From: Terriglobia bacterium
Lineage (GTDB): Bacteria; Acidobacteriota; Terriglobia; 20CM-2-55-15
DNA length: 42,277 nucleotides
Direction: 5' to 3'
NCBI GenBank assembly: GCA_036496425.1
Contig: DASXLG010000338.1
Location: 1 to 42,277 of the forward strand
Shown here in pieces: positions 21,127 through 40,684 of this stretch. Each line of letters opens with the position of its first letter. Within the stretch, counting starts at the first letter, position 1. The position numbers and the translations under genes were made by a program. The notes beneath the pieces are model-generated. The model was not told where the DNA came from, searched no databases, and worked only from the letters and a program-made list of their open reading frames with translations.

Positions 21127-21203
21127 GGAACACAAGAAGCACAAGAGGCACAAGAGCGGATGCATTCCTCTGCCTCTTGTGCCTCTTGTGCTTCTTGTGT
21201 TCC
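21127..21203. repeat. long intergenic palindrome, CACAAGA class
   Basis: Perfect 30-bp arms (21127-21156 and 21174-21203) face each other across a 17-base loop between two convergent genes. Each arm is three near-copies of a 9-mer (CACAAGAAG, CACAAGAGG, CACAAGAG). It could act as a bidirectional terminator or mRNA 3'-end stabiliser. Confidence 0.9.
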
Positions 21204-21217
21204 TTTCCCCTCCGTTG

Positions 21218-21862
21218 TTACGTCGTCATCTTGATGACCGGATCACTCCATTCGCTCCAGCCCGATTTTCCAAAAGCGCGAGCCTGGAAAACGTAGACTT
21301 TGCCTGGAGTAAGGCCGCTGACCACAGGCGCCGGCCGGGCGCTCGGGGCCTGTATTGTGGTCCAGGACGCCGGCGGCGTGTTGTTCGGTCCCTGCTCACC
21401 CGATTGGATTTCGAGCATGCGTGTGCCGGCTTGAGGTTCGACGAAAACCTTCTGCTGGCCGGGACCGTCCTGCACGAGCTTTTCGACTACCGATTTGATC
21501 AATGGCGGGGCCGGCGTCGGGCCCGCCATCACCTGGAAACCGGCGGCCGTGATCACCGTCGGGTCGGTACCCGAGACGTCCTCGACGTAGACCGCCTCCT
21601 TCTTGAGCATCTTTACAAACGCCCTGAATTGCTTATTCCTCTCGGCGATGGCAGTTTTGCCGCCGTCCTGAGCCGCTGCAACGGAAGTGCTGAGACTCTG
21701 CAACCCGCCTTTCAAGTCGGCTATGGCGATCGGCGGTGCCGTCAGCTTCGGGTTGCCATCCATACCGTTCACCGCGGCCGTGCCCGCGGATACAAGTTGA
21801 TCGGGCGTCAGCCGATTGAAAATCATCGCCACACGCGCCAGTTTAGTCGTTGAATTGGACAT
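21218..21862 (-). CDS. fibronectin type III domain protein
   Basis: The product is 214 residues; ATG 21862 follows AAGGGGAA. No signal peptide is obvious (MSNSTTKLARVAMIFNRLTP). Residues about 1-125 form a helical/Ala-rich region (QFRAFVKMLKKEAVYVEDVS). The C-terminal third is an FN3-like fold (RMLEIQSGEQGPNNTPP, PVVSGLTPGKVYVFQARAFG, GWSEWSDPVIKMTT). FN3 modules mediate protein contacts; the actual role is unknown. Confidence 0.8.
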   Translation of the reverse strand: MSNSTTKLARVAMIFNRLTPDQLVSAGTAAVNGMDGNPKLTAPPIAIADLKGGLQSLSTSVAAAQDGGKTAIAERNKQFRAFVKMLKKEAVYVEDVSGTDPTVITAAGFQVMAGPTPAPPLIKSVVEKLVQDGPGQQKVFVEPQAGTRMLEIQSGEQGPNNTPPASWTTIQAPSARPAPVVSGLTPGKVYVFQARAFGKSGWSEWSDPVIKMTT

Positions 21863-22045
21863 AGTTCCCCTTTTGCCCTTTCGGGACTTTGTAATGGGTT
21901 AGCGTTGGGTTGTGGACCGCGTCTCGGTTGCGCCGCGGATGCTTCTACTAAGGCAAGCGGGTGCCCAAAAACGGCGTGATGGCGCCCAAAAGCGCAACTA
22001 TGTGTTTTCAATGACTTAAGCGAATGCGATGGGTATTCGACATCG

Positions 22046-22071
22046 GGTTTTTCGCACTTGTGCGAAAAACC
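22046..22071. repeat. perfect 12-bp dyad, possible operator
   Basis: GGTTTTTCGCAC and GTGCGAAAAACC face each other with a 2-base centre. A further half-site GTGCGAAAAAC follows at 22083. It lies about 190 bp upstream of the FN3 gene and just before the 20-bp tandem array. Confidence 0.7.
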
Positions 22072-22137
22072 ATTCGCAGAAGTGCGAAAAACGGAGGTGG
22101 CCGGCCGCCTTTGAGACGTCAAAGCCGCGCCCGCATT

Positions 22138-22347
22138 GTCGACCGAAAAGTCACAACGTCGGGCGAAAATTGACGTTGTCGAATGAAAATCCACAACGTC
22201 GAGCCAAATCTCACGTTGTCGGACGTAATTTCATCTCGTCGAGCGAAAGTTGACATTGTCGAGCGAAAATTCACAACGTCGGGCCAAATCTCACGTTGTC
22301 GGACGTAATTTCATCTCGTCAAGCAGCAACCGACGTTGTCGAACGGC
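22138..22347. repeat. 20-bp tandem-repeat array with 80-bp higher-order period
   Basis: Ten full units and a partial one, each starting GTCG (GTCA in the last full unit), follow one another every 20 bp without a single indel. Typical units are GTCGAGCGAAAATTCACAAC and GTCGGGCCAAATCTCACGTT. Unit types recur every 80 bp (22178-22257 against 22258-22337). Ends alternate between ACAAC and ACGTT, so neighbouring boundaries form ACAACGTC/GACGTTGT dyads. A 20-bp period is not a multiple of three, so it is not a peptide repeat. It lies in a 609-bp stretch (21863-22471) with no supported gene. Confidence 0.92.
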
Positions 22348-22471
22348 GGACTCCGGTTGTACGTCGATGGAGACCGCGCGTCCGATCGAGAGCAGTGGTG
22401 CCAGTAGACGGCGCAGTCGCATTGAGCCTCCAGTAGCGCGGCAAAAGGCCGCCCAGAGAGACTTTTGGCGG

Positions 22472-23182
22472 CTACTTCTTCGGGCCTGGAGGGGTTGCTA
22501 TTTGGCCGCGGCTTTCCGCATCGCTATAGCCCTTATGGTGATCGGAAAATTCATGGTCCCTGGATGTCCCTTCGCCAAGTGGCACTCCTGCCGGATGCGG
22601 GTCAAACTGGTGCGGATACCAGTAATGCATGTGGCATTTTTCGCAGGCCTGATCGAGCTGATCGCCGAGGTCGAGCATTTGATCGGCATCCTTCTTGTCG
22701 ATCGCATCCAGCAGAAGCTTCGTGGAGTCGTAAAGGCCATGGGTATAGTTTACCCAACCGGCTCGATCGGCATCGATCAGCGCCTTGATTTCTTCAGGAC
22801 CTTCCTCGATGCCAGGGTTCTCGGATTTTTCTCCGGGTTTCGCGACCAGGCGGCCTGGCATTTGAAGAAGATTACTGGCTTCGAGAAGCGCGATCGCGTG
22901 GTTGCGGGCCTCCTTCCAATCGTCGTCGGTTTTGGGCCTTCGGTCAATCACGCCTGTGGCGGTCTCCTCGGTTGAAACGGCATCCCAGAGCCAGTCGGAG
23001 TTATAGTCGACCTCAGCGTCCATCAGATCTTTGATTGTGGCAGTAGGCCGGTACTGCGGCTCGCTGATAGATCCCGCGGGAGCCGCCGGTTTCGAGGAAC
23101 ACCCCCCGGCCAGAAGCGATAAAGCGGATGACAAAAGAAACAAAAAAAAATTTCTGATTAATAGCGTGTGTTTAAGAGACAT
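22472..23182 (-). CDS. cytochrome c'-like lipoprotein, paralogue 1
   Basis: The product is 236 residues. ATG 23182 opens MSLKHTLLIRNFFLFLLSSA and a lipobox (LLAGGC), so it is probably a lipoprotein. A helical domain (about 45-175) carries the family motifs ATIKDLMDAEVDYNSDWLWD, WKEARNHAIALLEASNLLQM, PGRLVAK and, near its end, the haem site CEKCHMHYWYP. A C-terminal haem motif after a helical bundle is the layout of class II cytochromes (cytochrome c'). An extra His-rich tail (HEFSDHHKGYSD) distinguishes it from its two paralogues at 23380 and 25841. It probably transfers electrons outside the cytoplasm. A strong repeat operator lies 66 bp upstream. Confidence 0.88.
   Translation of the reverse strand: MSLKHTLLIRNFFLFLLSSALSLLAGGCSSKPAAPAGSISEPQYRPTATIKDLMDAEVDYNSDWLWDAVSTEETATGVIDRRPKTDDDWKEARNHAIALLEASNLLQMPGRLVAKPGEKSENPGIEEGPEEIKALIDADRAGWVNYTHGLYDSTKLLLDAIDKKDADQMLDLGDQLDQACEKCHMHYWYPHQFDPHPAGVPLGEGTSRDHEFSDHHKGYSDAESRGQIATPPGPKK
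23163..23182 (-). repeat. 20-bp start-codon repeat, copy 2
   Basis: On the minus strand these 20 bases, starting with the ATG of this gene, are identical to 12355-12374. The following codons are CTA TTA ATC here and CTT CTG ATT in the other copy, synonymous for Leu-Leu-Ile. Confidence 0.9.
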
Positions 23183-23247
23183 TCGAATACACCATTGTTA
23201 GTCGCCGAAGGACGATCGTCCGAATGGACAAGCTAGCCGGTTTCTGG

Positions 23248-23267
23248 TTTCCTGAAGAGTTCCTGGA
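23248..23267 (-). promoter_or_regulatory. 11-bp direct-repeat operator (strong copy)
   Basis: On the minus strand it reads TCCAGGAACTCTTCAGGAAA, with half-sites 11 bp apart. It points towards the cytochrome gene starting at 23182. No convincing -10 box was found at the expected distance. Confidence 0.55.
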
Positions 23268-23295
23268 TTGCTGTTCAAAGTCGCCGTTCAACAAA

Positions 23296-23357
23296 GAGAT
23301 CAGCCACAAAAGGCACAAGAGGGAGGGATGTCTTTTGTGCCCTTTGAGGCTAATCTC
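23296..23357. repeat. intergenic palindrome, CACAAGA class, part of inverted duplicate
   Basis: The imperfect arms 23296-23320 (GAGATCAGCCACAAAAGGCA...) and 23331-23357 surround a G-rich loop downstream of the cytochrome gene ending at 23380. Its sequence and flank reappear on the opposite strand at 26860-26975. Confidence 0.85.
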
Positions 23358-23379
23358 CCCGTCTAAGCTTGGAAACCGG

Positions 23380-23973
23380 CTAATCGGACTTCCTCAAGCT
23401 GGGCGCCGCGTCGGGCCGCTTCTCATTGGGGTACCAGTATTGCAGATGGCATTTCTCACAGGCTTCGTCGATGTCGTTACCGACGTCGAGAAGCTTGTCT
23501 TTGTCTTTGGCCTCGGCCGCTTGCAAGGTTTTCATGGTGGCATCATGCAGGTCGTGCGCATGTTTGAACCAGGCTGCACGGTCCTTGTTGATTGCGGCTT
23601 CGATCTGGTCCGGGGCGAGTTCAACGTTCGGATCGTTGGCTTTCTCGCCTTCTTTCGCAACTTTGCGGCCGGGCATCTGCAGCAGGTTCGTGGCTTCCAG
23701 CAGCATGATGGCGTGATTGCGGACCTGCTTCCAGTCTTCGTCGGTTTTTGGATACTTCTCTTCGACACCCTTGGCGCTGACAATGGTCTCGACGGAGTCC
23801 CAGATGTAATCCGATCCCGGATCGACAAGAGCATCCATGATGTCTTTTACACTCGCCGTAAGCTGATACTCCGGCTGCGGCTCAACCTTGGCAGCCGGCT
23901 GAGTTTGCTGCTGCGCACATGAAGCCGTCATGACGGCCGCTATCGTGCAGACAAATCCCAAAAACCTTCGCAT
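23380..23973 (-). CDS. cytochrome c'-like lipoprotein, paralogue 2
   Basis: The product is 197 residues. ATG 23973 follows AGGAGGG by 6 bp, deciding the start over the upstream in-frame TTG at 23988. The signal ends in a lipobox (VMTASC). The domain shares with paralogues 1 and 3 the motifs ASVKDIMDALVDPGSDYIWD, DEDWKQVRNHAIMLLEATNL, LQMPGRKVAKEGEK and the haem site CEKCHLQYWYPNEKRP. It most resembles the other lipoprotein copy at 22472. It is likely an extracytoplasmic electron carrier. A strong repeat operator and a TAACAT box precede it. Confidence 0.88.
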   Translation of the reverse strand: MRRFLGFVCTIAAVMTASCAQQQTQPAAKVEPQPEYQLTASVKDIMDALVDPGSDYIWDSVETIVSAKGVEEKYPKTDEDWKQVRNHAIMLLEATNLLQMPGRKVAKEGEKANDPNVELAPDQIEAAINKDRAAWFKHAHDLHDATMKTLQAAEAKDKDKLLDVGNDIDEACEKCHLQYWYPNEKRPDAAPSLRKSD

Positions 23974-24021
23974 TGAAACCCTCCTCAAAAAAATGGCATG
24001 TTATCGCGGGCTGCCCGGATT

Positions 24022-24041
24022 GTATCTGAAGAATCGCTGAA
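24022..24041 (-). promoter_or_regulatory. 11-bp direct-repeat operator with -10 box (strong copy)
   Basis: On the minus strand it reads TTCAGCGATTCTTCAGATAC, with a further TTAAG half-site 12 bp before it. A TAACAT lies 18 bp after the site, so the site would sit at the -35 position of a promoter for the cytochrome gene at 23973, the arrangement of activator-dependent promoters. Confidence 0.62.
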
Positions 24042-24058
24042 TTTTTCTTAAGAAAGCG

Positions 24059-24191
24059 ATGAGCAACAAGTCCGGCCTTTCGCCGACCGTTCATTGGTGG
24101 GACTCCTGCGGCTTCTCCGGAAATACTGGCTATGGCTTCCAGTTCACTCACCGTGCACCAGTGCTTTCAAGATATGCTGGTCGGCGGGACC
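24059..24191 (+). other. possible gene fragment before the ABC transporter
   Basis: An ATG at 24059 opens a frame reading MSNKSGLSPTVHWWDSCGFS and then GNTGYGFQFTHRAPVLSRYA. The composition looks protein-like, but the frame runs on out of phase inside the ATPase gene, so it is not a complete gene. It may be a remnant of a lost neighbour. No function is claimed. Confidence 0.25.
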
Positions 24192-24899
24192 ATGGACAGC
24201 ATCCTCGATGTACACCACCTCTCTGTGAACTTTCGTCGGCGCCATGTGCTGCGCGACCTGAGCTTCAAGGTCGAACGCGGCACTTCGCTCGCGATTCTCG
24301 GGCCGAACGGCGCGGGCAAGACCGTGCTGTTTCGGTCGCTGATTGGTGCGACGCCCTTTGACGGCACGGTGCGCTGGGCCGCCGGCACGCGTATCGGCTA
24401 TGTGCCTCAGAAGCTGGACCTCGAGCGTGACATCCCGATCACCGGACTCGATTTTCTGACCGCACGCAGCGCGCTCGCGCGTGGCACGCGGGCCGACGTC
24501 TCTCGTGTGCTGGAGCTCGTCGGCATTGCCCCCGACGTGGTGAGACAGCCGATAGGCGTGCTCTCGGGCGGCCAGTTCCAACGTTTGCTGCTCGCCTTCG
24601 CGCTGCTCGGCGATCCGAACGCGCTGCTGCTCGACGAGCCGACCGCGGGAGTGGACGAGCCGGGGCAGGAACAAATCAACGAGCTTGTCAGCATTCTTCA
24701 GCGCGATCACGCGCTTACCGTGCTGTTCATTTCGCACGAGCTCACGGTGGTGACCCGCTACGCCACGAACGTGCTCTGCCTGAGCCAGAGCGCCGCATGC
24801 TTTGGTTCGCCACGCACCGTTCTGACGCCGAAAATCCTGCGAGACATGTACGGGACGGACGTGCATTATCACATCCACGATCACGCCGATGGCCGTTGA
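24192..24899 (+). CDS. zinc/manganese-type ABC transporter ATPase
   Basis: The product is 235 residues from the ATG at 24192, chosen because DSILDVHHLSVNF begins the ATPase fold; an in-frame start at 24132 would add 20 unrelated residues. It has Walker A GPNGAGKT (about 37), signature LSGGQFQRLLLAFAL (about 124), Walker B ALLLDEPTAGVD (about 145) and H-loop FISHELT. Together with the ZnuB-like permease at 24889 it belongs to the family that imports Zn2+, Mn2+ or Fe2+. The C-terminus is His-rich (DVHYHIHDHADG). Its third codon positions appear more GC-rich than in the flanking cytochrome genes. Confidence 0.9.
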   Translation: MDSILDVHHLSVNFRRRHVLRDLSFKVERGTSLAILGPNGAGKTVLFRSLIGATPFDGTVRWAAGTRIGYVPQKLDLERDIPITGLDFLTARSALARGTRADVSRVLELVGIAPDVVRQPIGVLSGGQFQRLLLAFALLGDPNALLLDEPTAGVDEPGQEQINELVSILQRDHALTVLFISHELTVVTRYATNVLCLSQSAACFGSPRTVLTPKILRDMYGTDVHYHIHDHADGR

Positions 24900-25647
24900 T
24901 GTATTGGCCCTCGCGGTAGTGATGGCCGTGGCCTCCGGCCTGATCGGTTGCTTTGCCGTGATGCGGCGGATGTCGCTGGCGGCCGATCCGCTTTCGCACG
25001 TCGCGCTGCCCGGTATCGGCGTCGCCCTGGCGCTACGGATCCATCCGATCTTCGGCGCCGCGGCGCTGCTGTTCTTCGGCGCGCTCCTGGTGTGGGCGCT
25101 CGAGCAACGGACCCGTGCCGCCACCGAAACGATGATCGGCGTTGTCTTTTCCGCGGCGCTGGCTGTCGGAAGCATGATCACCACGGGCGAGGATCTGATA
25201 GGGGCGTTGTTCGGCACCAACAGCGCGCTCAGCAGGCCGGAGTTGATCTTCGGCCTCGTCGGCGCGGTAGCAGTGATCGTCTTCATCATTACACAACGGG
25301 ACAGGCTGATCCTGATGCTCGTGTCGACAGAAGTGGCCCGCACGGCCGGGATCAACGTCGGCCGCCTGAATCTGCTGTATCTTGAAGCATTCGCGCTGAC
25401 GATTGCGCTCGGGCTGCGCTACCTGGGGGTGCTGTTGATGGGGGCTCTGATTATTGTGCCCGCCGCCACCGCAAAGGGACTGGCACGCAATCTCACAGGC
25501 ATGCTGTACATGGCGGCCGGTATCGCTGTACTGGCCACCGTCGTCGGTACCTGGGCGGCGATTTACCTCAACCGGCCCAGCGGCCCGCTGATCGTGATGA
25601 CGGCGACAGGCGTCTTCCTGCTTAGTCTTACACGAGAGCCCGCCTAA
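24889..25647 (+). CDS. ZnuB/MntB-like ABC transporter permease
   Basis: The product is 252 residues with about eight membrane helices. Family marks are the opening CFAVMRRMSLAADPLSHVAL PG region, GTNSALSR and the coupling region GLRYLGVLLMGALIIVPAAT. It forms the membrane channel for a divalent metal with the ATPase at 24192; the two genes overlap by 11 bp. No periplasmic metal-binding protein gene lies beside it, which is unusual for this importer type; it may be encoded elsewhere or the system may work in another way. Confidence 0.92.
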   Translation: MAVDVLALAVVMAVASGLIGCFAVMRRMSLAADPLSHVALPGIGVALALRIHPIFGAAALLFFGALLVWALEQRTRAATETMIGVVFSAALAVGSMITTGEDLIGALFGTNSALSRPELIFGLVGAVAVIVFIITQRDRLILMLVSTEVARTAGINVGRLNLLYLEAFALTIALGLRYLGVLLMGALIIVPAATAKGLARNLTGMLYMAAGIAVLATVVGTWAAIYLNRPSGPLIVMTATGVFLLSLTREPA

Positions 25648-25674
25648 ATGCCACGCCGAGCGGAGGGTATTCTC

Positions 25675-25839
25675 CTATTGGCACCTGGCGGCAAGCGTGG
25701 GCTTCTCGCAATACTTATCGTGGCAGTTCGCGCAAGCCGTTGTCATCTTGTCCTCGGCCGAAGAGAGGCCGATCGCTGCTGTGAACAAAACCAACACCGA
25801 AGCTACTTTCGCGAATCGGATTTGTGTGTCCTGTCGTGA
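25675..25839 (-). pseudogene. short c-type cytochrome fragment
   Basis: Directly after the stop of the cytochrome gene at 25841 the minus strand encodes a signal-peptide-like stretch (FAKVASVLVLFTAAIGLSSA) and then a haem motif with a class II-like tail (TACANCHDKYCEKPTLAARC). There is no ATG at the right place. A frame from 25923 would overlap the preceding gene by about 80 bp. It could be a tiny cytochrome with an unusual start or a 5'-damaged copy. Confidence 0.45.
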
Positions 25840-25840
25840 A

Positions 25841-26413
25841 TCAGTCGACGATTCCGTCTTCCTTTGCAGCTTGTTGAGCGCGCTTGTCGTTGGGATACCA
25901 ATAATGAAGGTGGCAATTTTCACAAGCCTTGTCGATGCTGTCGATCGCCTTGAACAATGCGTCCTTATCTTTGGCGTCGACAGCCTTCAGTGTCATCGCC
26001 GCCGCATCCTGAAGCCTTCGCGCGCGCCGGAAAAAGCCTGGACGGTCCCCGTCCACAAGCTTCTGGATTTCCTCCGGCTGGAGTTCCACCTGGGGATTCT
26101 TGGACTTTTCGCTCGGATGCGCGACCTTCCGGCCCTCCATCGTCAATAGATTCGGCGCTTCCATAAGAATGAAAGCGCGATGACGCACTTCCTCCCACTC
26201 TTCATCCGTCTGCGGAGCTTTTTCTCTAACGCCGTTCTCGTCGGCGATTTCCTGAACTGATTCGAATAGGAAGTCTCCGCTGGGATCGACCATCGAATCC
26301 ATGATGTCCTTGATCGTTGCGGGTTTCAAAAGATCAGGTGGCGCGGGCGCTCTGGAGCACGCGCCCGATACCGCAGCGAGGACGCCGGCCAGGAACAGGT
26401 TGGATATTCTCAT
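25841..26413 (-). CDS. cytochrome c'-like protein, paralogue 3
   Basis: The product is 190 residues. The signal peptide MRISNLFLAGVLAAVSGAC ends in a lipobox-like Cys. It shares ATIKDIMDSMVDPSGDFLFE, TDEEWEEVRHRAFILMEAPN, LLTMEGRKVAHPSEK and the haem site CENCHLHYWYPNDK with the copies at 22472 and 23380. It is more divergent (TMEGR for QMPGR). A probable extracytoplasmic haem carrier. A TAGAAT box and an operator-like repeat lie upstream. Confidence 0.88.
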   Translation of the reverse strand: MRISNLFLAGVLAAVSGACSRAPAPPDLLKPATIKDIMDSMVDPSGDFLFESVQEIADENGVREKAPQTDEEWEEVRHRAFILMEAPNLLTMEGRKVAHPSEKSKNPQVELQPEEIQKLVDGDRPGFFRRARRLQDAAAMTLKAVDAKDKDALFKAIDSIDKACENCHLHYWYPNDKRAQQAAKEDGIVD

Positions 26414-26455
26414 AACGGTCTGCGGTACATCATTCTAGGTGAAAAACGGCGAGGG

Positions 26456-26475
26456 AATTCTCGAAAGTTTCTGAA
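26456..26475 (-). promoter_or_regulatory. 11-bp repeat operator (weaker copy) with -10 box
   Basis: On the minus strand it reads TTCAGAAACTTTCGAGAATT. The first half is perfect, the second (TCGAG) degenerate. TAGAAT lies 18 bp after it, the same distance as the TAACAT at the 24022 site, and just before the cytochrome gene at 26413. Confidence 0.45.
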
Positions 26476-26859: not shown

Positions 26860-26975
26860 CCAGCGTGAGAAAGTCCGATTAGCCGATATCCAATCTTCAA
26901 CAAAGAGATTAGCCACAAAAGGCACAGAAGGGGACGCAGACTTTTGTGCCTTTTGTGGCTAATCTCTTACTTGTT
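26860..26975. repeat. palindrome plus cytochrome-gene 3' end, inverted duplicate
   Basis: The palindrome arms 26899-26930 and 26941-26975 match across a 10-base loop. The whole stretch aligns, in opposite orientation, to about 23290-23405: first the 3' end of a cytochrome gene (AAGTCCGATTAG, Lys-Ser-Asp-stop), then the spacer, then the palindrome, roughly four bases in five identical. Confidence 0.85.
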
Positions 26976-27014: not shown

Positions 27015-29984
27015 ATGAACCACGTTCCCGAGAGAAATCCTCACCCGGACGGAATCCCCTTGCCGCCAAGTTCGCATGCGAAGCCCGTGAATACCTTCGG
27101 CCCTGCGATGGAGCTCGAACTCGAGCTGCGGCGTGTGGTCCGCGGCGAAGTCCGCTTCGACGCCGGTGCGCGCGCGATCTACGCCTCCGACGGCTCGAAC
27201 TACCGCCAGGCCCCAATCGGCGTGGTCGTTCCTCGCGATAACGACGATGTGATTGCGGCCATGGCGGCCTGCCGCAAGTTCGGCGCGCCGGTCTTGTCGC
27301 GGGGTGCGGGAACCAGCCTTGCCGGGCAGTGCTGCAATGTTGCGGTTGTGCTCGACTACACGAAGTACATGAACCGGATTCTCGAGATCAATCCGGCGCA
27401 ACGGTATGCCTGGGTTCAGCCCGGTGTCGTCTGCGATACGCTTCGCGATGCTGCGGAAACCTATCAGCTCACCTGGGGGCCCGATCCTTCCACGCACAAC
27501 CGATGCTCTCTGGGCGGGATGATCGGCAACAACTCGTGCGGCACTCATTCGTTGTTCGCGGGAAAGACGGCGGACAATATTGAGGAACTCAAAATCCTCC
27601 TGTACGACGGCACGCAACTGACCGTCGGGCCGACTCAACCGCAGGAACTCGATGCCATCGTGGCGGCGGGAGGGCGGCGCGGCGAAATCTACGGCGCTTT
27701 ACGCGGGATTCGGGATCGCTATGCGGACCTGATCCGTTCGAAATACCCGGCCATTCCGCGGCGGGTGTCGGGCTACAACCTCGAACAGTTGCTCCCCGAA
27801 AACGGTTTCAACATCGCGCGGGCGCTGGTGGGAACGGAAGGCACGTGTACCGCTGTGCTCGAGGCAAAGGCCAGGCTCATTCCAAGTCCGCAATACCGCT
27901 CGCTGGTCGGCCTCGGTTACCGCGACGCGTTTGCCGCCGCGGACCACGTCCCGGAGATACTTGCCCTCGAGCCGATCGGCCTGGAAGGCTTCGAAGGAGC
28001 GATGATCGACGGACTCCGGCGGAAGGGCGCGCCGAATCTCGAATTGATTCCCGAGGGCCGCGGTTACCTGCTCGTCGAGTTCGGAGCCGATGCCCCCGGC
28101 GCCTCCGAGCAACGCGCGAGCGAGCTGATCGAGCGTTTAAAGCGGCTTCCGGATCCTCCGAACATGCGTCTGTATACGAAGGCAGCGGCGAAAGCCGTGT
28201 GGCGCATTCGCGAATCGGGACCACGGGCCGCCGGCGGCGGGCCCGGCATGCCGCCTCGCTTCGAAGGATGGGATGACGCCTCCGTTGCTCCGGACAAGCT
28301 TGGCCCCTACCTGCGGGAATTGCGGCAGCTCCTGGACTCCTACAACTATCAGGCCGCGTACTACGGTCACTTCGGCGACGGCTGCATCCACATGCAGGTG
28401 AGCTTCGACCTGTTCACCGGCCAGGGAATCCGCAACTATGCCGCCTTCATTGAGCGCGCCGCCGATCTGGTCGTGAAATACGGAGGTTCGCTTTCGGGAG
28501 AACACGGCGACGGACAGTCCCGCGGCGCGCTGCTTCCGAAGATGTTTGGTCCGGAACTGATGCAGGCCTTCCGTGATTTCAAAGCCGTCTGGGATCCGGA
28601 AAACAAAATGAATCCGCACAAGGCGGCCGTGGATCCGTATCCGCCTACAGAGAATCTGCGGCTGGGCGCAGATTACAAACCGAAGGATCCGCCAACGCAC
28701 TTTGCTTTTCCGGAGGATCAGGGGTCGTTCGCCAAAGCTTCGCTCAGATGCATTGGTGTCGGCGCCTGCCGCAAAGGCAGCGAGGGCATGATGTGCCCGA
28801 GCTACATGGCGACACTCGAGGAGGAACACAGCACGCGGGGACGCGCCCGCCTGCTGTGGGAGATGCTTCAGGGCGAGGTCATCCAGGATGGCTGGAAAAG
28901 CGAACAGGTCAAACAGGCCATGGACCTCTGCCTGTCGTGCAAGGCCTGCAAATCGGAATGTCCGACCAACGTCGACCTGGCGACCTACCGGGCCGAGTTT
29001 CTGTCGCATTATTACGAGTCGCACTCGCGCCCGCTTGAGGCTTACGTGTTCGGCATGATCGACCGGTGGGCGCAGCTGGCTTCAGTCGCGCCGCGACTGG
29101 CGAACTTCGCCAACAATGCGCCGGGTGTCCGGCAGCTGCTCGGTTCCGCTCTGCACCTGGCTCCGCAGCGCCAGCTTCCCCGCTTTGCCACGCATACGTT
29201 CCAGCAGTTCGCTCGCCGCCGGCATGTGCCCGATACCGTCACGGCCGGAGCAACCCGCAACGGAAGCCGGCAAGTGATCCTCTGGGCGGATACGTTCAAC
29301 AACTACTTTCATCCGCAAACCAGTGAAGCCGCCTACGAAGTGCTGACGCAGGCGGGCTTCGAAGTCAGTGTGCCGGCCGGACACTTCTGCTGCGGGCGGC
29401 CGCTCTACGATTTCGGCATGATCGGCCGCGCGCGATCGTATTTGCAGGAGATTCTCCGGAAGCTGGCCGGGCCCATCGATGCAGGTGTCCCGATCGTCGT
29501 GCTCGAACCGAGTTGCGCCTCCGTGTTTCGAGACGAACTGCGCAACCTGTTTCCGTCCGATGAGCGGGCCGAACGCCTGCGGAAGCAAACCTTCCTGCTC
29601 AGCGAATTCCTGGAACGGCAAGCCCCGCGCTATGTACCTCCCCGGTTGAACCGCGAGGTTCTGGTCCACGGTCATTGCCACCACAAGGCCATCCTCAAGA
29701 TGACCGACGAAGAATCGTTGCTGAAGAAAATGGGCGCCGAAGTCAGGGCGCCGGATGCAGGCTGCTGCGGAATGGCCGGGCCGTTCGGATTCGAGAAAAG
29801 CAAGTACGAGGTCTCGCAGATCATCGGGGAGCGCCTGCTGCTACCTGCCGTGAGGGCCTCTGCGCCGGACACGCTGATCGTGGCCAACGGATTCAGCTGT
29901 CAGGAACAGATCGCGCATGGAACCGGCCGGCGCGCGATTCACCTGGCGGAATTGATTTACCTCGCGTCCCAATCTCAGAAATGA
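27015..29984 (+). CDS. fused FAD-linked oxidase and iron-sulfur CCG-domain protein
   Basis: The product is 989 residues. ATG 27015 is preferred; the frame is open upstream through the palindrome. The N-terminal half is a GlcD/D-lactate dehydrogenase-type FAD domain (LSRGAGTSLAGQCCN, LGGMIGNNSCGTHS near 166). Next comes a ferredoxin-like region with two cysteine clusters (CIGVGACRKG...CP near 578 and CLSCKACKSECP near 638). The C-terminus holds two CCG cysteine motifs (CCGRPLYDFG near 792, CCGMAGPFGF near 916) as in GlcF and LldE. It probably oxidises D-lactate, glycolate or another 2-hydroxy acid and passes electrons to the quinone pool. The fusion is well known in many phyla. Confidence 0.93.
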   Translation: MNHVPERNPHPDGIPLPPSSHAKPVNTFGPAMELELELRRVVRGEVRFDAGARAIYASDGSNYRQAPIGVVVPRDNDDVIAAMAACRKFGAPVLSRGAGTSLAGQCCNVAVVLDYTKYMNRILEINPAQRYAWVQPGVVCDTLRDAAETYQLTWGPDPSTHNRCSLGGMIGNNSCGTHSLFAGKTADNIEELKILLYDGTQLTVGPTQPQELDAIVAAGGRRGEIYGALRGIRDRYADLIRSKYPAIPRRVSGYNLEQLLPENGFNIARALVGTEGTCTAVLEAKARLIPSPQYRSLVGLGYRDAFAAADHVPEILALEPIGLEGFEGAMIDGLRRKGAPNLELIPEGRGYLLVEFGADAPGASEQRASELIERLKRLPDPPNMRLYTKAAAKAVWRIRESGPRAAGGGPGMPPRFEGWDDASVAPDKLGPYLRELRQLLDSYNYQAAYYGHFGDGCIHMQVSFDLFTGQGIRNYAAFIERAADLVVKYGGSLSGEHGDGQSRGALLPKMFGPELMQAFRDFKAVWDPENKMNPHKAAVDPYPPTENLRLGADYKPKDPPTHFAFPEDQGSFAKASLRCIGVGACRKGSEGMMCPSYMATLEEEHSTRGRARLLWEMLQGEVIQDGWKSEQVKQAMDLCLSCKACKSECPTNVDLATYRAEFLSHYYESHSRPLEAYVFGMIDRWAQLASVAPRLANFANNAPGVRQLLGSALHLAPQRQLPRFATHTFQQFARRRHVPDTVTAGATRNGSRQVILWADTFNNYFHPQTSEAAYEVLTQAGFEVSVPAGHFCCGRPLYDFGMIGRARSYLQEILRKLAGPIDAGVPIVVLEPSCASVFRDELRNLFPSDERAERLRKQTFLLSEFLERQAPRYVPPRLNREVLVHGHCHHKAILKMTDEESLLKKMGAEVRAPDAGCCGMAGPFGFEKSKYEVSQIIGERLLLPAVRASAPDTLIVANGFSCQEQIAHGTGRRAIHLAELIYLASQSQK

Positions 29985-30052
29985 GGTTTCGCGCGGTCCT
30001 CGAACGAACGACGTCGACTACCGAAGAAGCCGGAATCTGACTGAAGGGGGAC

Positions 30053-30125
30053 GAAACCACAAGATGCACAAGAGGCACAAGGAGAACGGTGCTGTTCTTG
30101 TGCCTTTTGTGCTTCTCGTGGTTCC
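30053..30125. repeat. intergenic palindrome, CACAAGA class
   Basis: The imperfect arms 30053-30087 and 30094-30125 (GAAACCACAAGATGCACAAG, and GTTCTTGTGCCTTTTGTGCT in the other) lie between two genes on the same strand, after the oxidoreductase stop. A half-unit of the same sequence (GAAACCACGAGAGGCAGA) occurs at 40579. Confidence 0.88.
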
Positions 30126-30201
30126 TTCTCTGCTGTGCCGGCGGCACGATTCGTAATAGAATCCCACGGTGTAAACCGCGCACACAAGGAGCACAGAGAA
30201 C

Positions 30202-31221: not shown

Positions 31222-31304
31222 CTTATTGGAGGTTGCATCATTGGAGGTTTCTGCAGTTCTAAATTTGAAATGCAGAAACCTCCAATGATGCAACTTCCAA
31301 TAAG
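31222..31304. repeat. long intergenic palindrome, ATTGGAGG class
   Basis: Two 34-bp arms (31222-31255 and 31271-31304), identical except for one base, surround an A/T-rich loop between convergent genes. The 15-base motif ATTGGAGGTTGCATC is nearly repeated within each arm. It touches the stop codon of the cytochrome at 31306. Confidence 0.92.
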
Positions 31305-32513: not shown

Positions 32514-32867
32514 TCATTTGACGATCGCGGAACCGAGCCAAACCGCGAGATACCCGAGCGCGACGCTTCCGACCACGTTGATCAATCCCATCCACATCGC
32601 ACCGGCTTGTACGGCCTGAAATGTCTCGTATTCGAAGCTGGAAAACGTCGTATACCCTCCGAGGAAACCTACCACCAGCAGAAGCCGCCAATTCGGATTT
32701 GCCAGCCGCTGGGTCAAGAGCGTCATCATCAGACCAATTAAAAACGAGCCTGTTATGTTGATGACCATCGTGCCCAGTGAAGGAAAACGACCACCGGCTT
32801 TCTCCGCAATCGCGGTGCCAATCACATAGCGCGCAAGAGCGCCACCGCCACCGCCGAACAGCACCAT
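32514..32867 (-). CDS. crcB: CrcB/Fluc fluoride channel
   Basis: The product is 117 residues, four membrane helices. ATG 32867 opens MVLFGGGGGALARYVIG; the upstream in-frame part encodes the riboswitch in another role. Family motifs are present: ARYVIG, GTMVINITGSFLIGL, GGYTTFSSFEYE. The protein forms dual-topology dimers that let fluoride leave the cell and protects enolase and pyrophosphatase. It is the first gene of the crcB-DUF190-cytochrome unit under a fluoride riboswitch. Confidence 0.94.
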   Translation of the reverse strand: MVLFGGGGGALARYVIGTAIAEKAGGRFPSLGTMVINITGSFLIGLMMTLLTQRLANPNWRLLLVVGFLGGYTTFSSFEYETFQAVQAGAMWMGLINVVGSVALGYLAVWLGSAIVK

Positions 32868-32927: not shown

Positions 32928-33003
32928 GGAAGGGCTCCCACAGCACGAACTGTAGGAGTTATTGGCTGCGTGGGCAGCATTAAGCGAACTCCACCGCTGG
33001 CGG
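32928..33003 (-). promoter_or_regulatory. fluoride riboswitch (crcB RNA motif)
   Basis: On the minus strand the aptamer runs from about 33000 (GCGGTGGAGTTCGC, TTAATGCTGCC) to ACTCCTAC near 32952, closely matching the crcB motif. The 3' part CTCCTACAG can pair with CTGTGGGAG about 6 bases further on, giving the hairpin of an expression platform. A promoter TTGCGG-18 bp-TATATT (33034 to 33005) places the transcript start right before the aptamer. The gene starts 60 bp below it. Fluoride binding would release expression of crcB. Confidence 0.82.
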
Positions 33004-33103
33004 AAATATACGACATTGTCCGAGCTCACCGCAAATGGAGACCCTGAAGATGTCGCGATTTTTCCCAAAAGTGAGTATCGTACCTGCGGGAAAGGAGCAA
33101 GCT

Positions 33104-34021
33104 ATGGAAGAAGAGAAAATCAAGATCCCCGCGGAGGCGGTGGAACTGTATTCACGTTACATTCACGGTGAAATCGATCGCCGCGAGTTCTTCAGTAAAG
33201 TCTCACGATTCGCGATCGCCGGCCTTTCAACAGCGGCAATTGTCGAAAGGTTGATGCCGAATTATGCGCTGGGGCAGCAGATTCGGAAGGATGACGAGCG
33301 CATCAAAGCAAGTTACGAAACCATTCCGTCGCCGAATGGCAACGGCTATATCCGGGGCTATTTCGTCCGGCCGTTCAGCCAGGATACGCGCGCCGCGGCG
33401 GCGACAAAACTGCCCGCCGTTCTTGTGATACACGAAAATCGAGGATTGAATCCGCACACCGAGGATGTTGCACGGCGGTTTGCGCTGGAGAATTTCATCG
33501 CCTTTGCTCCGGACGCGCTGACGACCGTTGGAGGTTATCCGAGCGACGACTACAAGGGCGGCCAGTTGTTTAACGGGATCAATAAACCCAAGCTGACCCA
33601 GGATTTTGCCGCCTGTGCGCAATGGTTGAAGTCTCATGCCCTCTCCAGCGGGAAAGTCTGCGTCACCGGTTTCTGTTTTGGCGGCGGCGCGTCGAATACG
33701 CTAGCGACGCTGCTGGGCCCGGACCTCGCGGCGGCTGCTCCGTTTTATGGCGCCGCGCCTGCAGCGGCGGAGGTGGCGAAAATCAAGGCGGCGATATTGG
33801 TGCACCACGGAGCGCTGGACACGCAGACGGCCGGCGCCTGGCCCGCGTTTGAAGCGGAACTGAAGAAAAACAACGTTCCGTGCGAAGGCCACATCTGGCC
33901 AAACTCAGTGCATGGTTTCTTCAATGACGCCACGCCCGAACGCTACAACAAAGTCACGGCTCCCCAGGCCTGGAGTCGAACCATCGAGTGGTTCAATCAG
34001 TACGCCCGCGCCGCATCTTAG
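33104..34021 (+). CDS. dienelactone hydrolase-family protein, Tat-type N-terminus
   Basis: The product is 305 residues. AAAGGAG lies 6 bp before ATG 33104, deciding it over starts further upstream. Near residue 25 is a twin-arginine-like RREFFSKVSRFAIAGLSTAA, so export is likely. The alpha/beta hydrolase body has the nucleophile motif GFCFGGG (Cys nucleophile, about 189-195), the aspartate region HHGALDTQT and the histidine SVHGFF (about 268). It probably hydrolyses an ester or lactone; the natural substrate is unknown. Its stop is directly followed by a hairpin. Confidence 0.92.
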   Translation: MEEEKIKIPAEAVELYSRYIHGEIDRREFFSKVSRFAIAGLSTAAIVERLMPNYALGQQIRKDDERIKASYETIPSPNGNGYIRGYFVRPFSQDTRAAAATKLPAVLVIHENRGLNPHTEDVARRFALENFIAFAPDALTTVGGYPSDDYKGGQLFNGINKPKLTQDFAACAQWLKSHALSSGKVCVTGFCFGGGASNTLATLLGPDLAAAAPFYGAAPAAAEVAKIKAAILVHHGALDTQTAGAWPAFEAELKKNNVPCEGHIWPNSVHGFFNDATPERYNKVTAPQAWSRTIEWFNQYARAAS

Positions 34022-34062
34022 AATTGAGGATTGGCCGGATTCGTCCGGCCAATCCTCAATTC
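34021..34062 (+). terminator. hairpin terminator or palindrome after hydrolase gene
   Basis: Two perfect 19-bp arms (GAATTGAGGATTGGCCGGA and its complement) close over a TTCG tetraloop, starting on the last base of the stop codon. There is no T-run, so termination strength is uncertain. Confidence 0.75.
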
Positions 34063-34172
34063 CAACAGGTTTGGCTTGACCTTCCGCTTCATATAGACAA
34101 TGATTCGCAACTATTTCACGCGATCCTTATGCAGGATTTTGTACTGGTTCTTGTTTGGTTGAAGGGGGATGA

Positions 34173-37100: not shown

Positions 37101-38108
37101 ACAACCCGCACCCAGTTGGCCAACGGCAGCGTCGGCGCATTTGTGAGTACGCTGAACACGATCAATACAGGTTCAGGCAGTTCGTCGACCGGAGCCGTGC
37201 TGCGCAAGAACGGCTTCCCGGAAAACTACATAGTCCCAGATCCTCAGTACAATGGGGTGAGCCTGTTGGGCAATCCCGGAAGTTCGACTTATCACTCCAT
37301 GCAGATCCAGATGACCCGGCGGCTCGCGAAGGGCTTTACGAATACAACCACGTGGACCTGGAGCAAGGCGCTTGGCGAAGCGGAAACCGATAGCGGCACC
37401 ACCTACCGCGATCCGACCCGCCGCGCAATCGACAAGCGGTTGCTCAGCTACGATCACGCTCAGCAGATCACCAGCAACGGCACGTACGAACTGCCGTTCG
37501 GAACCAACCACTTTCTGCTTGGCTCGGCTCCCGGCTGGGTTCAGGAGATTGTCGGAAAATGGCAGATGGGCGGCATTTTGAACTTCAACTCCGGCGACCC
37601 TCTGACCGTCACGTCCAGCACTCAGACCATCAGCAACGTGAACGATCTGCCGAATATCCTGGGCGCGTTCCCGAAAAGTACCGGGAAAGTAACCAAGGTT
37701 GTCAATGGCGTCGTTTATCTCAATGGTTATTCACAGATCACGGATCCGTACCTCAGTCAGGTGACGTCCGTCAACACTTTGAATACGGCTTTCAGCAACA
37801 AGGCGATTACGGACCCGAGTGGAAACGTCGTCCTGGTGAATCCCCAGCCGGGACAAGTGGGCAGCCTGGGCCTGACCTATCTCAAGGGGCCGTCAAGCAT
37901 TCAGTTGGATATGAATATGGTCAAACGGTTTCCTATTCACGAGACCATGAACTTCGAATTTCGGGTGGATGCGCTCAATATCCTGAACCATCCCAATTTC
38001 GGGGATCCTAATGTCAACATCGACTCGACAGGCGCTTCCGGATTCGGCCGTATCACCAGCGCCACCGGCGCCCGCACGTTCGTGTTCAACACCCGCGTGA
38101 ATTTCTGA
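34173..38108 (+). CDS. Oar-like TonB-dependent receptor
   Basis: The product is 1311 residues, ATG 34173 preceded by GAAGGGGG. The signal peptide ends near GFGQ. The carboxypeptidase-regulatory-like domain (about 24-115: GGTVQDVSGALIPGVTVTAT, YQFPSLQPGTYKLQAELPG) is followed by a plug (VRDLPLATRDVFGLVATTAG, TTRDGISVTEGRFENG) and a long barrel ending NTRVNF. Its N-terminal half is very like the receptor at the left edge, which points to duplication. It transports an unknown ligand across the outer membrane. Confidence 0.94.
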   Translation: MKKCIGAIILLCLVGFCLNGFGQSANSIIGGTVQDVSGALIPGVTVTATNTGTGVVNTAVSNESGTYQFPSLQPGTYKLQAELPGFAISVVNNYALGGSAQATVNFSLQVGATTTVVDVTTTADAALTTASNSIGAVLPEYKVRDLPLATRDVFGLVATTAGVQSSGGFTGNFAGGRLSAVNTTRDGISVTEGRFENGAFSGTYTSPDLVEEVKVVVAPIDAETSRGSGQVAMVTRSGTNQYRGSLFWVNHNSLMDSSSWFNNFAGASKDYDNRNQFGGRLGGPIQKNKAFFFFLYEGQRDLKRQQAAGNTLTDMARSGIYRYWPGVDNANAAALNPSVNRSGVPVMPTGATGPLAAVDVFGNCTFQGAPVANCRSVHDPLRPAIDNSAYMQETLRRMPSPNDFVTGGDGLNTASIRFTRRVEGLDLANGNGTDVNRDQFNTRLDYNFNSRNKLSLIATKEHTWGGAAQAGQRAWPNGFDGIAKKHPDLYAFTFTSTLSSNLLNEFRIGRKRTINSQDAPANRSDAIGKQALQFEPVTNGIIYSITPTEWTSFDKYGGFGVWRFQASPTYTIGDDLSWTHGKHAFKGGVEWRRVSSYGHGDSNNTPLVSLGAGSSPVSVIDATNGMSANNQAAARNLLTDLSGSVASINEAFGILSPANTLLQGPPAVPFKLFGQIQSEMSVYMKDDWKFRPDLTLNLGMHWEYFGQPYEQHGLDARVIGGESAFANVSCTSDIGNPNFVSTCSNLAQVQFVGKNSTNPNITTNLKGNDYNNYAPAAGFSWSLPWFGKGKTVLRSGFGISYEGSLRNFITVDSTVGTVPGMTLISSGGTGVTYTPNTFTSLSTVSLPIPFPVGTPASAPFTVPTTDRTLTIGTYDHVSPYTENWNLEIQREVARNTTIEVRYIGTKGTKLWGTVNMNQIDALHHNPDLFNAFNAVRAGGDSALLTQMMMGMNLGGTGSCTVNGTTCTGANAVRLNTTTRTQLANGSVGAFVSTLNTINTGSGSSSTGAVLRKNGFPENYIVPDPQYNGVSLLGNPGSSTYHSMQIQMTRRLAKGFTNTTTWTWSKALGEAETDSGTTYRDPTRRAIDKRLLSYDHAQQITSNGTYELPFGTNHFLLGSAPGWVQEIVGKWQMGGILNFNSGDPLTVTSSTQTISNVNDLPNILGAFPKSTGKVTKVVNGVVYLNGYSQITDPYLSQVTSVNTLNTAFSNKAITDPSGNVVLVNPQPGQVGSLGLTYLKGPSSIQLDMNMVKRFPIHETMNFEFRVDALNILNHPNFGDPNVNIDSTGASGFGRITSATGARTFVFNTRVNF

Positions 38109-38112
38109 AAAA

Positions 38113-38203
38113 TTTAGCCGCAGATGACGCGGATGACGCAGATGGGGCCCAAACGAACTTTGGAGGCGCCCCATCTGCGTCATCCGCGTCATCTGCGGCT
38201 AAA
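38113..38203. repeat. long intergenic palindrome, GATGACGCG class
   Basis: Perfect arms of about 35 bp (38113-38148 and 38168-38203), built from near-copies of the 9-mer GATGACGCG, flank a 19-base loop between convergent genes. Probably a bidirectional terminator or repeat element. Confidence 0.92.
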
Positions 38204-38210
38204 AAGGTAT

Positions 38211-38543
38211 TCAGCGCAAATGATGCAGGTAAGCGATCAAATCCCGGACTTCCTGATCCTGAAGCCGGCCCTTGAAAGCCGGCATGGTTCTCAAACCTTC
38301 GATAATCACCATCCGAACCTGATCGTCTGTTGCGGGGGCGCCGCTCGGTAAAGTCTTCGCGTCGAACAGGCCGTTGAGTTTCGGCGGCTGTTTCAACAGA
38401 TCAGGAGGCGGTGTTTCATGACAGGGAGCACAATGGAGCTGGAAAAGTTCCCTTCCCTGCCGCTCGTCGCCACTGGTTGAAGGTTTGGAACAGGCCGCGA
38501 GAAATGAAGCCGCTAACAAGGCCCACGCGAATTTAGTCGCCAT
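38211..38543 (-). CDS. class I cytochrome c lipoprotein
   Basis: The product is 110 residues. ATG 38543 lies inside the end of the Sco gene (11-bp overlap). The signal ends in lipobox LAAC. The haem site is CAPCHETPPP; the distal ligand is probably the Met in GLRTMPAFKGRL; the C-terminal helix is DLIAYLHHL. It passes electrons outside the inner membrane, likely in the same pathway as the Sco and propeller proteins encoded upstream in the operon. Confidence 0.92.
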   Translation of the reverse strand: MATKFAWALLAASFLAACSKPSTSGDERQGRELFQLHCAPCHETPPPDLLKQPPKLNGLFDAKTLPSGAPATDDQVRMVIIEGLRTMPAFKGRLQDQEVRDLIAYLHHLR

Positions 38544-39396
38544 GCGCGGAGGATGAATGCGCCGCCTGCCGGAGCGCATCTTCCAATTCGGGAGCCGTCC
38601 AGTCGGCGGACCAGTATTTGGAAACGGTCCCGTCCGGTCCAATCAAAACAATGTTCATCGTGTGAGAGATCTGATTGTCCTCTTCAATATAGACAAGGCC
38701 GAACGCATTCGCCACCTCCCGCAGCTTGTCCGGCTTGGCGGAAGCGAAGTCCCAGTGCGAAAACCCGGAAGCATCGTCGCGAAGATATGCGAGCCCATAT
38801 TTCCGCATAATGGGTGGCGTGTCGTATTCAGAATCGAAACTCACCGTCACCAGGTGCGTGCGCGCATAATCCTCAGGCGTTTTGGCAAGGTCGTCCTGAA
38901 TCCTCGCGAACTGACTTGTCAGCCGCGGACAAAACTCGGGCAACGGACAGCGCGTATAGATAAATGTCATCAGGACAGCCTTGCCCTTGAAATCCGCCAG
39001 GTGAAACGGCTTGCCGTCCTGATCGATCAATTCCAGATTCGGCACGTGCTCGCCGGGTTTCAGCATGTGAACAACCGGCGGTGCGGAATTTGCTCCGCCA
39101 CGTTGAGTGATGCGGACTCCGCTGAGCCAGTAGTCGCTTCCGTCGCGAAGGACGGAAACCTTGGCATCGATGACATCACCGGGCCTCAGCCCGCTGGCGT
39201 CGCTGGACTGTTTGACCTTATAGGGCATGATCATACCAGGCATGAAACCGGGAATGTCGCCGTGTCTGACGACGATCATCTTCCCGGCCGGATCGCTCTG
39301 AATGACCTGCCCATGGAGTTGAAACTCACGCGTCGCGGGCTTGCAGGCCGCGACGAGCAGAACTGAAAAAACAAACAGACAGCTGCGTTTCATCAC
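38533..39396 (-). CDS. Sco1/SenC-family copper chaperone with CusF-like domain
   Basis: The product is 287 residues, lipobox LVAAC. Residues about 25-100 form a CusF-like copper-binding domain (FQLHGQVIQSDPAGKMIVVR HGD region, GFMPGMIMPYKV). A Sco thioredoxin fold follows (about 110-280). Its copper cysteines are in TRCPLPEFCP (about 146-153), a C-x5-C spacing instead of the usual C-x3-C, with the metal His in QISHTMNIV (about 241). Sco proteins load copper into cytochrome oxidase. The ATG overlaps the preceding stop (ATGA), so the operon is translationally coupled. Confidence 0.92.
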   Translation of the reverse strand: MMKRSCLFVFSVLLVAACKPATREFQLHGQVIQSDPAGKMIVVRHGDIPGFMPGMIMPYKVKQSSDASGLRPGDVIDAKVSVLRDGSDYWLSGVRITQRGGANSAPPVVHMLKPGEHVPNLELIDQDGKPFHLADFKGKAVLMTFIYTRCPLPEFCPRLTSQFARIQDDLAKTPEDYARTHLVTVSFDSEYDTPPIMRKYGLAYLRDDASGFSHWDFASAKPDKLREVANAFGLVYIEEDNQISHTMNIVLIGPDGTVSKYWSADWTAPELEDALRQAAHSSSAHGD

Positions 39397-40541
39397 CGCA
39401 TGACCCCCGTGTGACCCAAAGAATAGCGTCCGGGCTGCGGCCAGATCGTCAAACCGTGCGGTTCCGTGCCGACGGCGATCGTTTTGACTGCGCCCGAGGC
39501 CGTGTCGATGGCATACACGACTTTATCGAAGCGGCCGGACAACCAGAGCGTTTTGCCGTCAGCGCTGACGTTCCCCATATCCGGACTGCCCCCGCCGGGA
39601 ATCGTCCAGGTCTTCTCAATCTTGCGGGTCGCAAAGTCGATCACCGAGATCGTGCCCGGGCCCTTGGCCTTCACGTCGCCCATATGGGTGCCGCGGTTTG
39701 TCACATAAAGCTTCTTGCCGTCGCGGCTCGGATAAAGGCCGTGCGCGCCGCGTCCGGTCGGAATGAACGCCAACTGTTTGAAGGTCTGAGCATCGATGAC
39801 GTAGACGCCGTCGGCTTCCATATCGGCCACGAAAAATACTTTGCCGTCGGGAGCAATACGGATGTCCTGAGGCATGCTATGCCCGATCACGCCGGGAGTA
39901 GCGTCGGGACGCGCCAGCCTCAAATAGCTCACAACTTTGCGCTGCTTCAGATCGATCTTCGCGAGGCCGCCGCCGGAAAACTCGCAGGTGAAGACAGCGT
40001 AGGTTCCATCGATCGCAAAATCCGCGTGATTGACGCCGGAACATTGCGGCGTTGCGACGTTGTACTGCATCGCCATCGTGTGCGGATCGCGAAATTCAAG
40101 ACGCTTCAAAGCTTCGGCCACCACGATCGCCGACTTGCCGTCTGGCGTGAAATAGAGGTTGTATGCATCCGGCACTTTGACGGTCGTACCGGGTTTCCCG
40201 GTCTTCGGATCGATCGGAACCAGAATCCCCGACCGCCCGCGCTCTGCGCTTCCGGCAATCCACAACGTCTTCAAATCCCACGAAGGAATCACATGCTGGG
40301 GATTTCCACCCGTAACGAAATGATCGACCACCTGAAAGGTCGCCGGATCGATCACATAAACATCACCCGACTTCACATTGGGAACATAGACGCGGTTGAG
40401 GGCACCCGCTGTGGCAGGACTCATTTTGCCGGTGACCGACTCGCTGTAAACATTGTGGGGGTCGATGACCGGCGGCATTCCGGGCGCATTCTGGGCAAAA
40501 AGAGCGAAAAGAAAATATGCGAATAAGAGAGTGGAAGACAT
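39393..40541 (-). CDS. secreted YVTN beta-propeller protein
   Basis: The product is 382 residues with signal peptide MSSTLLFAYFLFALFAQNAP. The propeller blades repeat elements such as VYVPNVKSGDVYVIDPATFQ, VFFVADMEADGVYVIDAQTF and WLSGRFDKVVYAIDTASGAV. It resembles cytochrome cd1-type or YncE propellers but no haem d1 ligands can be named. It starts the operon with the Sco and cytochrome c genes, implying a role in extracytoplasmic redox or metal handling. GAGGAA precedes the ATG at 40541. Confidence 0.9.
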   Translation of the reverse strand: MSSTLLFAYFLFALFAQNAPGMPPVIDPHNVYSESVTGKMSPATAGALNRVYVPNVKSGDVYVIDPATFQVVDHFVTGGNPQHVIPSWDLKTLWIAGSAERGRSGILVPIDPKTGKPGTTVKVPDAYNLYFTPDGKSAIVVAEALKRLEFRDPHTMAMQYNVATPQCSGVNHADFAIDGTYAVFTCEFSGGGLAKIDLKQRKVVSYLRLARPDATPGVIGHSMPQDIRIAPDGKVFFVADMEADGVYVIDAQTFKQLAFIPTGRGAHGLYPSRDGKKLYVTNRGTHMGDVKAKGPGTISVIDFATRKIEKTWTIPGGGSPDMGNVSADGKTLWLSGRFDKVVYAIDTASGAVKTIAVGTEPHGLTIWPQPGRYSLGHTGVMR

Positions 40542-40604
40542 CGACGCAGTTCCTCATTCACGATCGTATCAAAGGAACGAAACCACGAGAGGCAGAAAAC
40601 ACTC

Positions 40605-40684
40605 ATTGCAACATTGCATCATTGGAAGTTGTTTCATTTTAAATATAAGAAATGCAGCAACTTCCATTGATGCAATGTTGCAAT
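40605..40684. repeat. long intergenic palindrome, ATTGGAAG class
   Basis: Two 27-bp arms (40605-40631 and 40658-40684) differ at one base and flank an A/T-rich loop, just after the PepSY gene stop. The arm ATTGCAAC-ATTGCATC-ATTGGAAG is three near 8-mers. It resembles the unit at 31222. Confidence 0.92.

Follow-up and report, generated by a model that had tools for sequence, protein, structure and literature searches.

What are the long palindromes that mark gene borders in the right half of a 42,277-nt acidobacterial contig, and how did they come to stand there? The contig (DASXLG010000338.1, C338 in our numbering; hereafter the window, meaning its whole length) belongs to the 6.16-Mb draft genome of a Terriglobia bacterium (GCA_036496425.1). 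A first-pass annotation, made from the letters alone, listed eight such palindromes and proposed that they are bidirectional terminators, RNA stabilisers or non-autonomous mobile repeats. The reading that we favor, with moderate confidence, is that they are high-turnover palindromic DNA repeats resembling repetitive extragenic palindromes (REPs), which disperse by a route other than a Y1 transposase, are kept at the 3′ ends of genes and possibly serve there as bidirectional terminator-like or 3′-end-protecting hairpins.

The palindromes belong to abundant genome-wide families

A census was taken in 1.22 Mb of non-N sequence, 20% of the genome and partly picked by motif hits, with arms of at least 20 nt, identity of at least 85% and a gap of at most 60. 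It returned 103 palindromes, as compared to 2 in three Markov-2 replicates together. Three families, A (CACAAGA), B (GATGACGCG) and C (ATTGGAGG/ATTGCATC), take in most of the eight window palindromes, and a slightly wider search yielded 28, 29 and 35 elements of these classes, respectively. In pieces not picked by motif hits, the three classes together reach 62 per Mb (17 in 275.9 kb). Across the whole genome, the class B pattern has 122 forward and 127 reverse matches and the class C pattern 57 and 62, each against none for a reversed-pattern control; class A gives 220 and 240 against 17, with several matches per element. The genome-wide census that the first-pass annotation had suggested thus finds the families abundant elsewhere, with hundreds of palindromes in this bacterium, rather than absent.

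Palindromes stand behind 128 of the 929 genes in the sampled part of the genome, about one in seven (genes were called with a hexamer coding model made for this analysis), yet we found no Rfam family or open-access paper describing them. Rfam returned no family match in the window at gathering thresholds, and at relaxed thresholds the window palindromes matched only generic hairpin models, almost all of them microRNA precursors, as any long hairpin does. Searching the open-access literature with the unit strings retrieved, among the papers listed, none that dealt with bacterial repeats.

All eight palindromes of the window are real and lie where they had been reported. Their RNA folding z-scores lie between -5.4 and -15.2, with no shuffled sequence folding equally well. 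The elements are as follows (percentages are arm identities).

21127-21203, unstranded: class A palindrome, GGAACACAAGAAGCACAAGAGGCACAAGAG arms of 30 nt, 100%, at a convergent border; found by repeat search and folding.
23296-23357, unstranded: imperfect class A palindrome (subclass AGAGAT(C/T)AGCCACAAAAGGCAC), behind the stop of gene 23380-23931 (-); z-score -5.4.
26898-26973, unstranded: class A palindrome of the same subclass, 33-nt arms, 91%, 48 nt after a doubtful 40-aa open reading frame and 42 nt before gene 27015-29984 (+).
30050-30128, unstranded: class A palindrome, 32-nt arms, 84%, at a tandem border, 66 nt after the stop of 27015-29984 (+).
31222-31304, unstranded: class C palindrome, ATTGGAGGTTGCATCATTGGAGG arms of 41 nt, 93%, filling a convergent border.
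34018-34065, unstranded: private hairpin with a TTCG loop and 22-nt arms, 95%, overlapping the stop codon of 33035-34021 (+).
38113-38203, unstranded: class B palindrome, TTTAGCCGCAGATGACGCGGATGACGCAGATGGGGC arms of 36 nt, 100%, 4 nt after a stop at a convergent border.
40605-40684, unstranded: class C palindrome, 35-nt arms, 91%, at a tandem border, 3 nt after the stop of 40688-42097 (-).
40580-40599, plus strand: class A-like half-arm AAACCACGAGAGGCAGAAAA adjoining the preceding class C palindrome, the remnant of a possible composite.

The division into sequence classes holds genome-wide, although the hairpin at 34018 belongs to none of them. So does the shared design of arms built from repeated units, except in unit length, first proposed as 8-15 nt. 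Arm self-similarity is highest at a lag of 9 for A (0.66) and for B (0.59), which gives both classes 9-nt units, whereas class C has peaks at 7-8 and 15, for units of 7-8 or 15 nt. Median arm lengths are 30-38 nt. The left 21 kb of the window was said to be free of palindromes and indeed has none of classes A, B or C. This asymmetry is unremarkable, because these elements are likewise missing from 11 of the 43 other 20-kb pieces sampled; the densest piece holds 6.

Copies share cores and loops but not surroundings

Class B cores are near-invariant, with most positions 95-100% conserved, and the loops of one class resemble each other more closely than shuffled loops do. Flanks, in contrast, are unrelated among copies: leaving aside flanks that consist of class A arms, a gene flank is shared by one element pair, and a further class B pair has common surroundings of about 30 bp. 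Taken together, invariant cores, related loops and unrelated flanks suggest that an element is copied as a discrete arm-loop-arm unit into unrelated sites. Segmental duplication was considered as a means of spread and set aside, with one clear gene-flank case found. Locus L025 (contig C271) carries two class B elements 12 kb apart in opposite orientation (4621-4750 and 16872-17001), which have in common a 130-bp block, 97% alike, that extends past the stem by about 20 and 8 bp.

Pairing at positions bordering the core, on its inner and outer sides, is far more frequent between the two arms of one element than with arms permuted across elements (0.70-0.87 as compared to 0.31-0.42 for inner positions of class B), so the two arms of an element evolve together after arrival. 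A near-identical duplicate of the 21127 border on contig C180 differs from it by whole 9-nt units, and half-arms are common, as are arms with a reduced number of units; arms therefore appear to slip by units, and slippage would be the process by which 9-nt units are gained and lost. The families are also nested: class C palindromes sit in the middle of a class A palindrome in four cases, three strict and the fourth degenerate, and symmetric composites occur (e.g., locus L096, 11115). At about 820-860 of locus L047 (contig C192), one class C arm is interrupted by a 36-nt repeat unit (CGCGAAGCGCGAGCCCGACAGGGCGAAGCCTCAA...) that is a palindrome in its own right in the congener G004.

Element-specific pairing outside the conserved core, gain and loss of 9-nt units and symmetric composites such as that of L096 could also be produced without movement, if small inverted repeats formed and lengthened in place through hairpin-primed template switching and slippage. 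We regard this as very unlikely to be the whole origin of the families, since dozens of unrelated sites could not in this way come to have one core in common, with loops that are related. Template switching and slippage may instead modify elements after they arrive.

Most elements lie directly behind stop codons

Placement was analysed for the 91 elements of classes A, B and C whose arms reach 18 nt or more. Of these, 75 lie beside at least one stop codon, and 66 of the 75 are within 20 bp of it, where 9.3 would be expected and the maximum in 2000 trials of random intergenic placement was 19. The same closeness to stops is seen in the part of the sample not picked by motif hits. Convergent borders hold 31 elements against 12.4 expected, in line with the first-pass annotation, which placed them often between convergent genes, whereas divergent borders hold 10 of the 91 against 32.7 expected. 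In tandem borders, 31 of 43 elements are closer to the upstream stop than to the downstream start (p = 0.005), and 4 of the 91 lie inside called genes. Placement relative to genes is thus far from random, and the 3′-end location first described for the window extends to the genome, although two palindromes of the window itself, at 26898 and 30050, do not immediately follow a stop. If the elements do move, copies would survive chiefly directly behind stop codons.

Palindromes are replaced between related species

Orthologous gene ends were compared with five congeners, including G001 to G005. The class B core, with 249 matches here, has 0-5 in each of the five. Among 79 reciprocal best pairs, a palindrome follows the gene in this genome only in 14, in the relative only in 8 and in both in 3, where 2.4 would be expected by chance; in all 3 shared cases the families differ.

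Individual borders show the same pattern. Orthologues in G001, G003 and G004 keep the stop codon of the 34018 border without its palindrome, the best-matching G001 gene at the 38113 border is followed by a GTAG-type REP instead of a class B palindrome, and the class C palindrome of 31222 is missing behind its G005 orthologue. Conversely, one gene that lacks a palindrome in the window is followed by a CACAAAA palindrome in G005. The congeners have palindrome versions of their own (TTTAGCCGCGAATTACGCGAATTACGC and ACAATTGACTATTGACCATTG in G002, GAGAATTGGGAATTGAGCATTGG in G001), and those of G004 are mostly GTAG REPs.

This comparison of orthologous borders, also proposed in the first-pass annotation, speaks for lineage-specific mobile repeats and does not support a conserved gene-by-gene function. 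Under the favored reading, the elements, about 60-100 bp long, fall into several families (A, B, C and others) that are unrelated or related only at a distance. These would have been amplified independently in the different lineages, with quick turnover.

What drives the spread

The REP-like size, copy number and location of the elements raise the alternative that they are ordinary REPs or terminal inverted repeat (TIR) elements, non-autonomous and mobilised by a Y1 tyrosine transposase of the RAYT (REP-associated tyrosine transposase) or TIRYT kind. GTAG REPs and TIR-like GGGGACA repeats do coexist in the genus, and this genome encodes one Y1_Tnp gene (locus L054, 12938-13813, contig C15). 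That lone gene, however, is flanked by inverted repeats of another sequence (GGGGGCGCACACCTGAATTC/GAATTCAGGTGTGCGCCCCC), the ends of the A, B and C elements have no GTAG or CGTC tag, and Y1_Tnp matches are absent from four genomes of the phylum that are rich in palindrome arms of CACARAG or CGCGAAT type, which indicates that the known REP driver is not needed. Y1 mobilisation was accordingly rejected as the driver of A, B and C; we hold it to be improbable and, for these classes, largely refuted. Solo palindromes closely similar to the Y1-flanking repeat occur elsewhere (L057, 2061; L058, 16320).

Another candidate source is a DDE insertion sequence, of which the palindromes would be derivatives akin to miniature inverted-repeat transposable elements (MITEs). 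Inverted-repeat units of 60-100 bp that are intergenic and lineage-specific would suit such an origin. We nonetheless judge it most unlikely, as the flanks have no target-site duplications (direct-repeat signal 2.91 as compared to 3.05 permuted) and neither a longer element nor a full-length insertion sequence bounded by inverted arms was recognised in the sampled 20% of the genome.

The copying route would then be independent of the known REP transposase family, with another transposase or hairpin-mediated copying as possible substitutes. If the elements are mobile, this would be a hitherto unknown copying route. Of the three proposals of the first-pass annotation, non-autonomous mobile repeats is the best supported, through lineage-specific amplification, unrelated flanks, nesting and family replacement; no cognate transposase was found, nor are there target-site duplications.

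Related palindromes in other genomes

The survey of the phylum covered 247 genomes and used patterns of three tandem units with reversed-pattern controls. Of these genomes, 25 have three CACARAG units and 15 have three CGCGAAT units, and the reversed patterns matched almost nowhere; unit variants are genome-specific, and many matches form inverted pairs. BLAST of a synthetic CACAGAG palindrome against plasmids gave matches in Bacteroides, Gemmatirosa, Nostoc, Anabaena and Pseudoalteromonas. Full palindromes were confirmed in two Bacteroides plasmids and were not found at the match in the two Nostoc cases read or in Pseudoalteromonas. A and B elements taken from the window, and likewise a synthetic CGCGAAT palindrome, had no matches in the same plasmid search. 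Related palindromes are thus present in about one tenth of the sampled genomes of the phylum and on plasmids of other phyla.

In plasmid records of Bacteroides ovatus and B. finegoldii (L191 and L192, 1497-1570 in each), a CACAGAG palindrome of 9-nt units lies between gmd and the GDP-L-fucose synthase gene (fcl).

A bolder possibility, which we consider doubtful but worth stating, is a cross-phylum superfamily with arms of about 9-nt units (CACAGAG-, CACAAGA-, GCAGATGAC- and CGCGAATGA-type) that disperses without a Y1 transposase. Its members might be hairpin-copied into the loops of other palindromes, and each lineage would acquire a new unit sequence while the architecture is kept.

A possible role at 3′ ends

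Transcribed copies are predicted to fold into hairpins of about -45 to -80 kcal/mol. Flanks are A-rich before the stem and T-rich after it (0.38 each as compared to a baseline of 0.23), equally on both sides in tandem borders, and by the criteria of this analysis canonical hairpin and T-tract terminators follow only 9 of 899 other 3′ ends. The A- and T-rich flanks and the rarity of canonical terminators fit bidirectional terminator-like hairpins, and a terminator-like or 3′-end-protecting action in both directions would be the most likely function. The 3′-end role is likely enough to name; if it holds, the palindromes would be transcript-end signals of a kind that is replaced rapidly.

The same flanks and scarcity of canonical terminators, along with the closeness to stops and the convergent preference, could be explained by bidirectional transcription terminators selected gene by gene, their likeness in sequence being incidental. 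We consider this unlikely: orthologous gene ends share palindromes no more than chance, near-identical cores stand at dozens of unrelated genes, the stems have no wobble bias, and 10 copies lie in divergent borders.

Several observations weigh against dispersed repeats with a 3′-end function as well. Neither a cognate enzyme nor an empty site was found for A, B or C, so that mobility is inferred, and the missing target-site duplications noted above point the same way. Free space beside the palindrome in convergent borders has a median of 15 nt as compared to 32 nt in palindrome-free borders, which we counted as alike; with similar spare space, and with promoter regions excluding insertions, much of the 3′ location could come from tolerance alone, with elements excluded from promoters and genes. 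A T content of 38% beyond the stem is far under that of a classical U-tract. Sense-strand G-U mismatches are not favored (36 vs 33), so the stems show no evidence of selection at the RNA level. Finally, the Bacteroides palindrome of related type separates the co-directional genes gmd and fcl, which argues against strong termination there. From the flank composition and the few canonical terminators, the bidirectional terminators of the first-pass annotation are rated as possible.

Other features of the window

An intergenic tandem array at 22134-22345, unrelated to the palindromes, consists of units of about 20 nt (CATTGTCGAGCGAAATTTCA) with higher-order periods of 40 and 80 nt. At 32946-33007 (-), a match to the fluoride riboswitch family RF01734 scores 24.3 bits, below the gathering score of 34. 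It lies directly upstream of crcB (32514-32867, -, PF02537), which is followed by a DUF190/P-II-like gene, and from this gene context the riboswitch is likely real. Three small look-alike genes within 4 kb (22472-23023, 23380-23931 and 25841-26329, -) are apparently cytochrome-c′-like; a weak Pfam match, below the cut-off, is found only in the third (25841-26329).

Comparison with known systems

REPs, with the related BIMEs and REPINs, are short multicopy extragenic palindromes in species-specific families, with a GTAG or CGTC tag and a link to RAYTs as defining marks; their stems measure 6-13 bp, they span 20-40 bp overall and they lie mainly downstream of coding regions (PMC3733652, PMC3116915). 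Like them, A, B and C are multicopy, species-specific and mainly downstream of genes, at convergent or co-directional borders. Unlike them, they have arms of 30-40 nt, which in A and B are built of 9-nt units, consensus ends without the tag, no Y1 transposase link and two or more families nested in each other.

The TIR repeats of TIRtrons and TIRYT genes are long untagged inverted repeats beside tyrosine transposases, known in several Acidobacteria (PMC3733652). The GGGGACA class and the repeat beside the lone Y1 gene fit this group. A, B and C are likewise long untagged inverted repeats in moderately abundant families, but they do not flank the Y1 gene and have no GGGGWSAS motif.

With intrinsic (Rho-independent) terminators, including bidirectional and U-tract-less variants, the palindromes share a hairpin behind the stop with an A-rich 5′ and a T-rich 3′ flank. 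They differ in stems several times longer, in a T content of only 38% and in a sequence that is common genome-wide and not conserved at orthologues. As in MITEs such as ERIC, NEMIS and RUP (70-300 bp), the inverted repeats are non-coding and intergenic; unlike in MITEs, target-site duplications are absent, and a related full-length insertion sequence was not found in the sampled 20% of the genome. Paired DNA uptake sequences, which form terminators according to work cited in PMC2267715, resemble the palindromes in placing a short repeated unit in inverted pairs behind genes, and differ from the tandem units per arm and the several unrelated unit sequences in one genome seen here. We file A, B and C as a novel form of already known dispersed extragenic palindromes.

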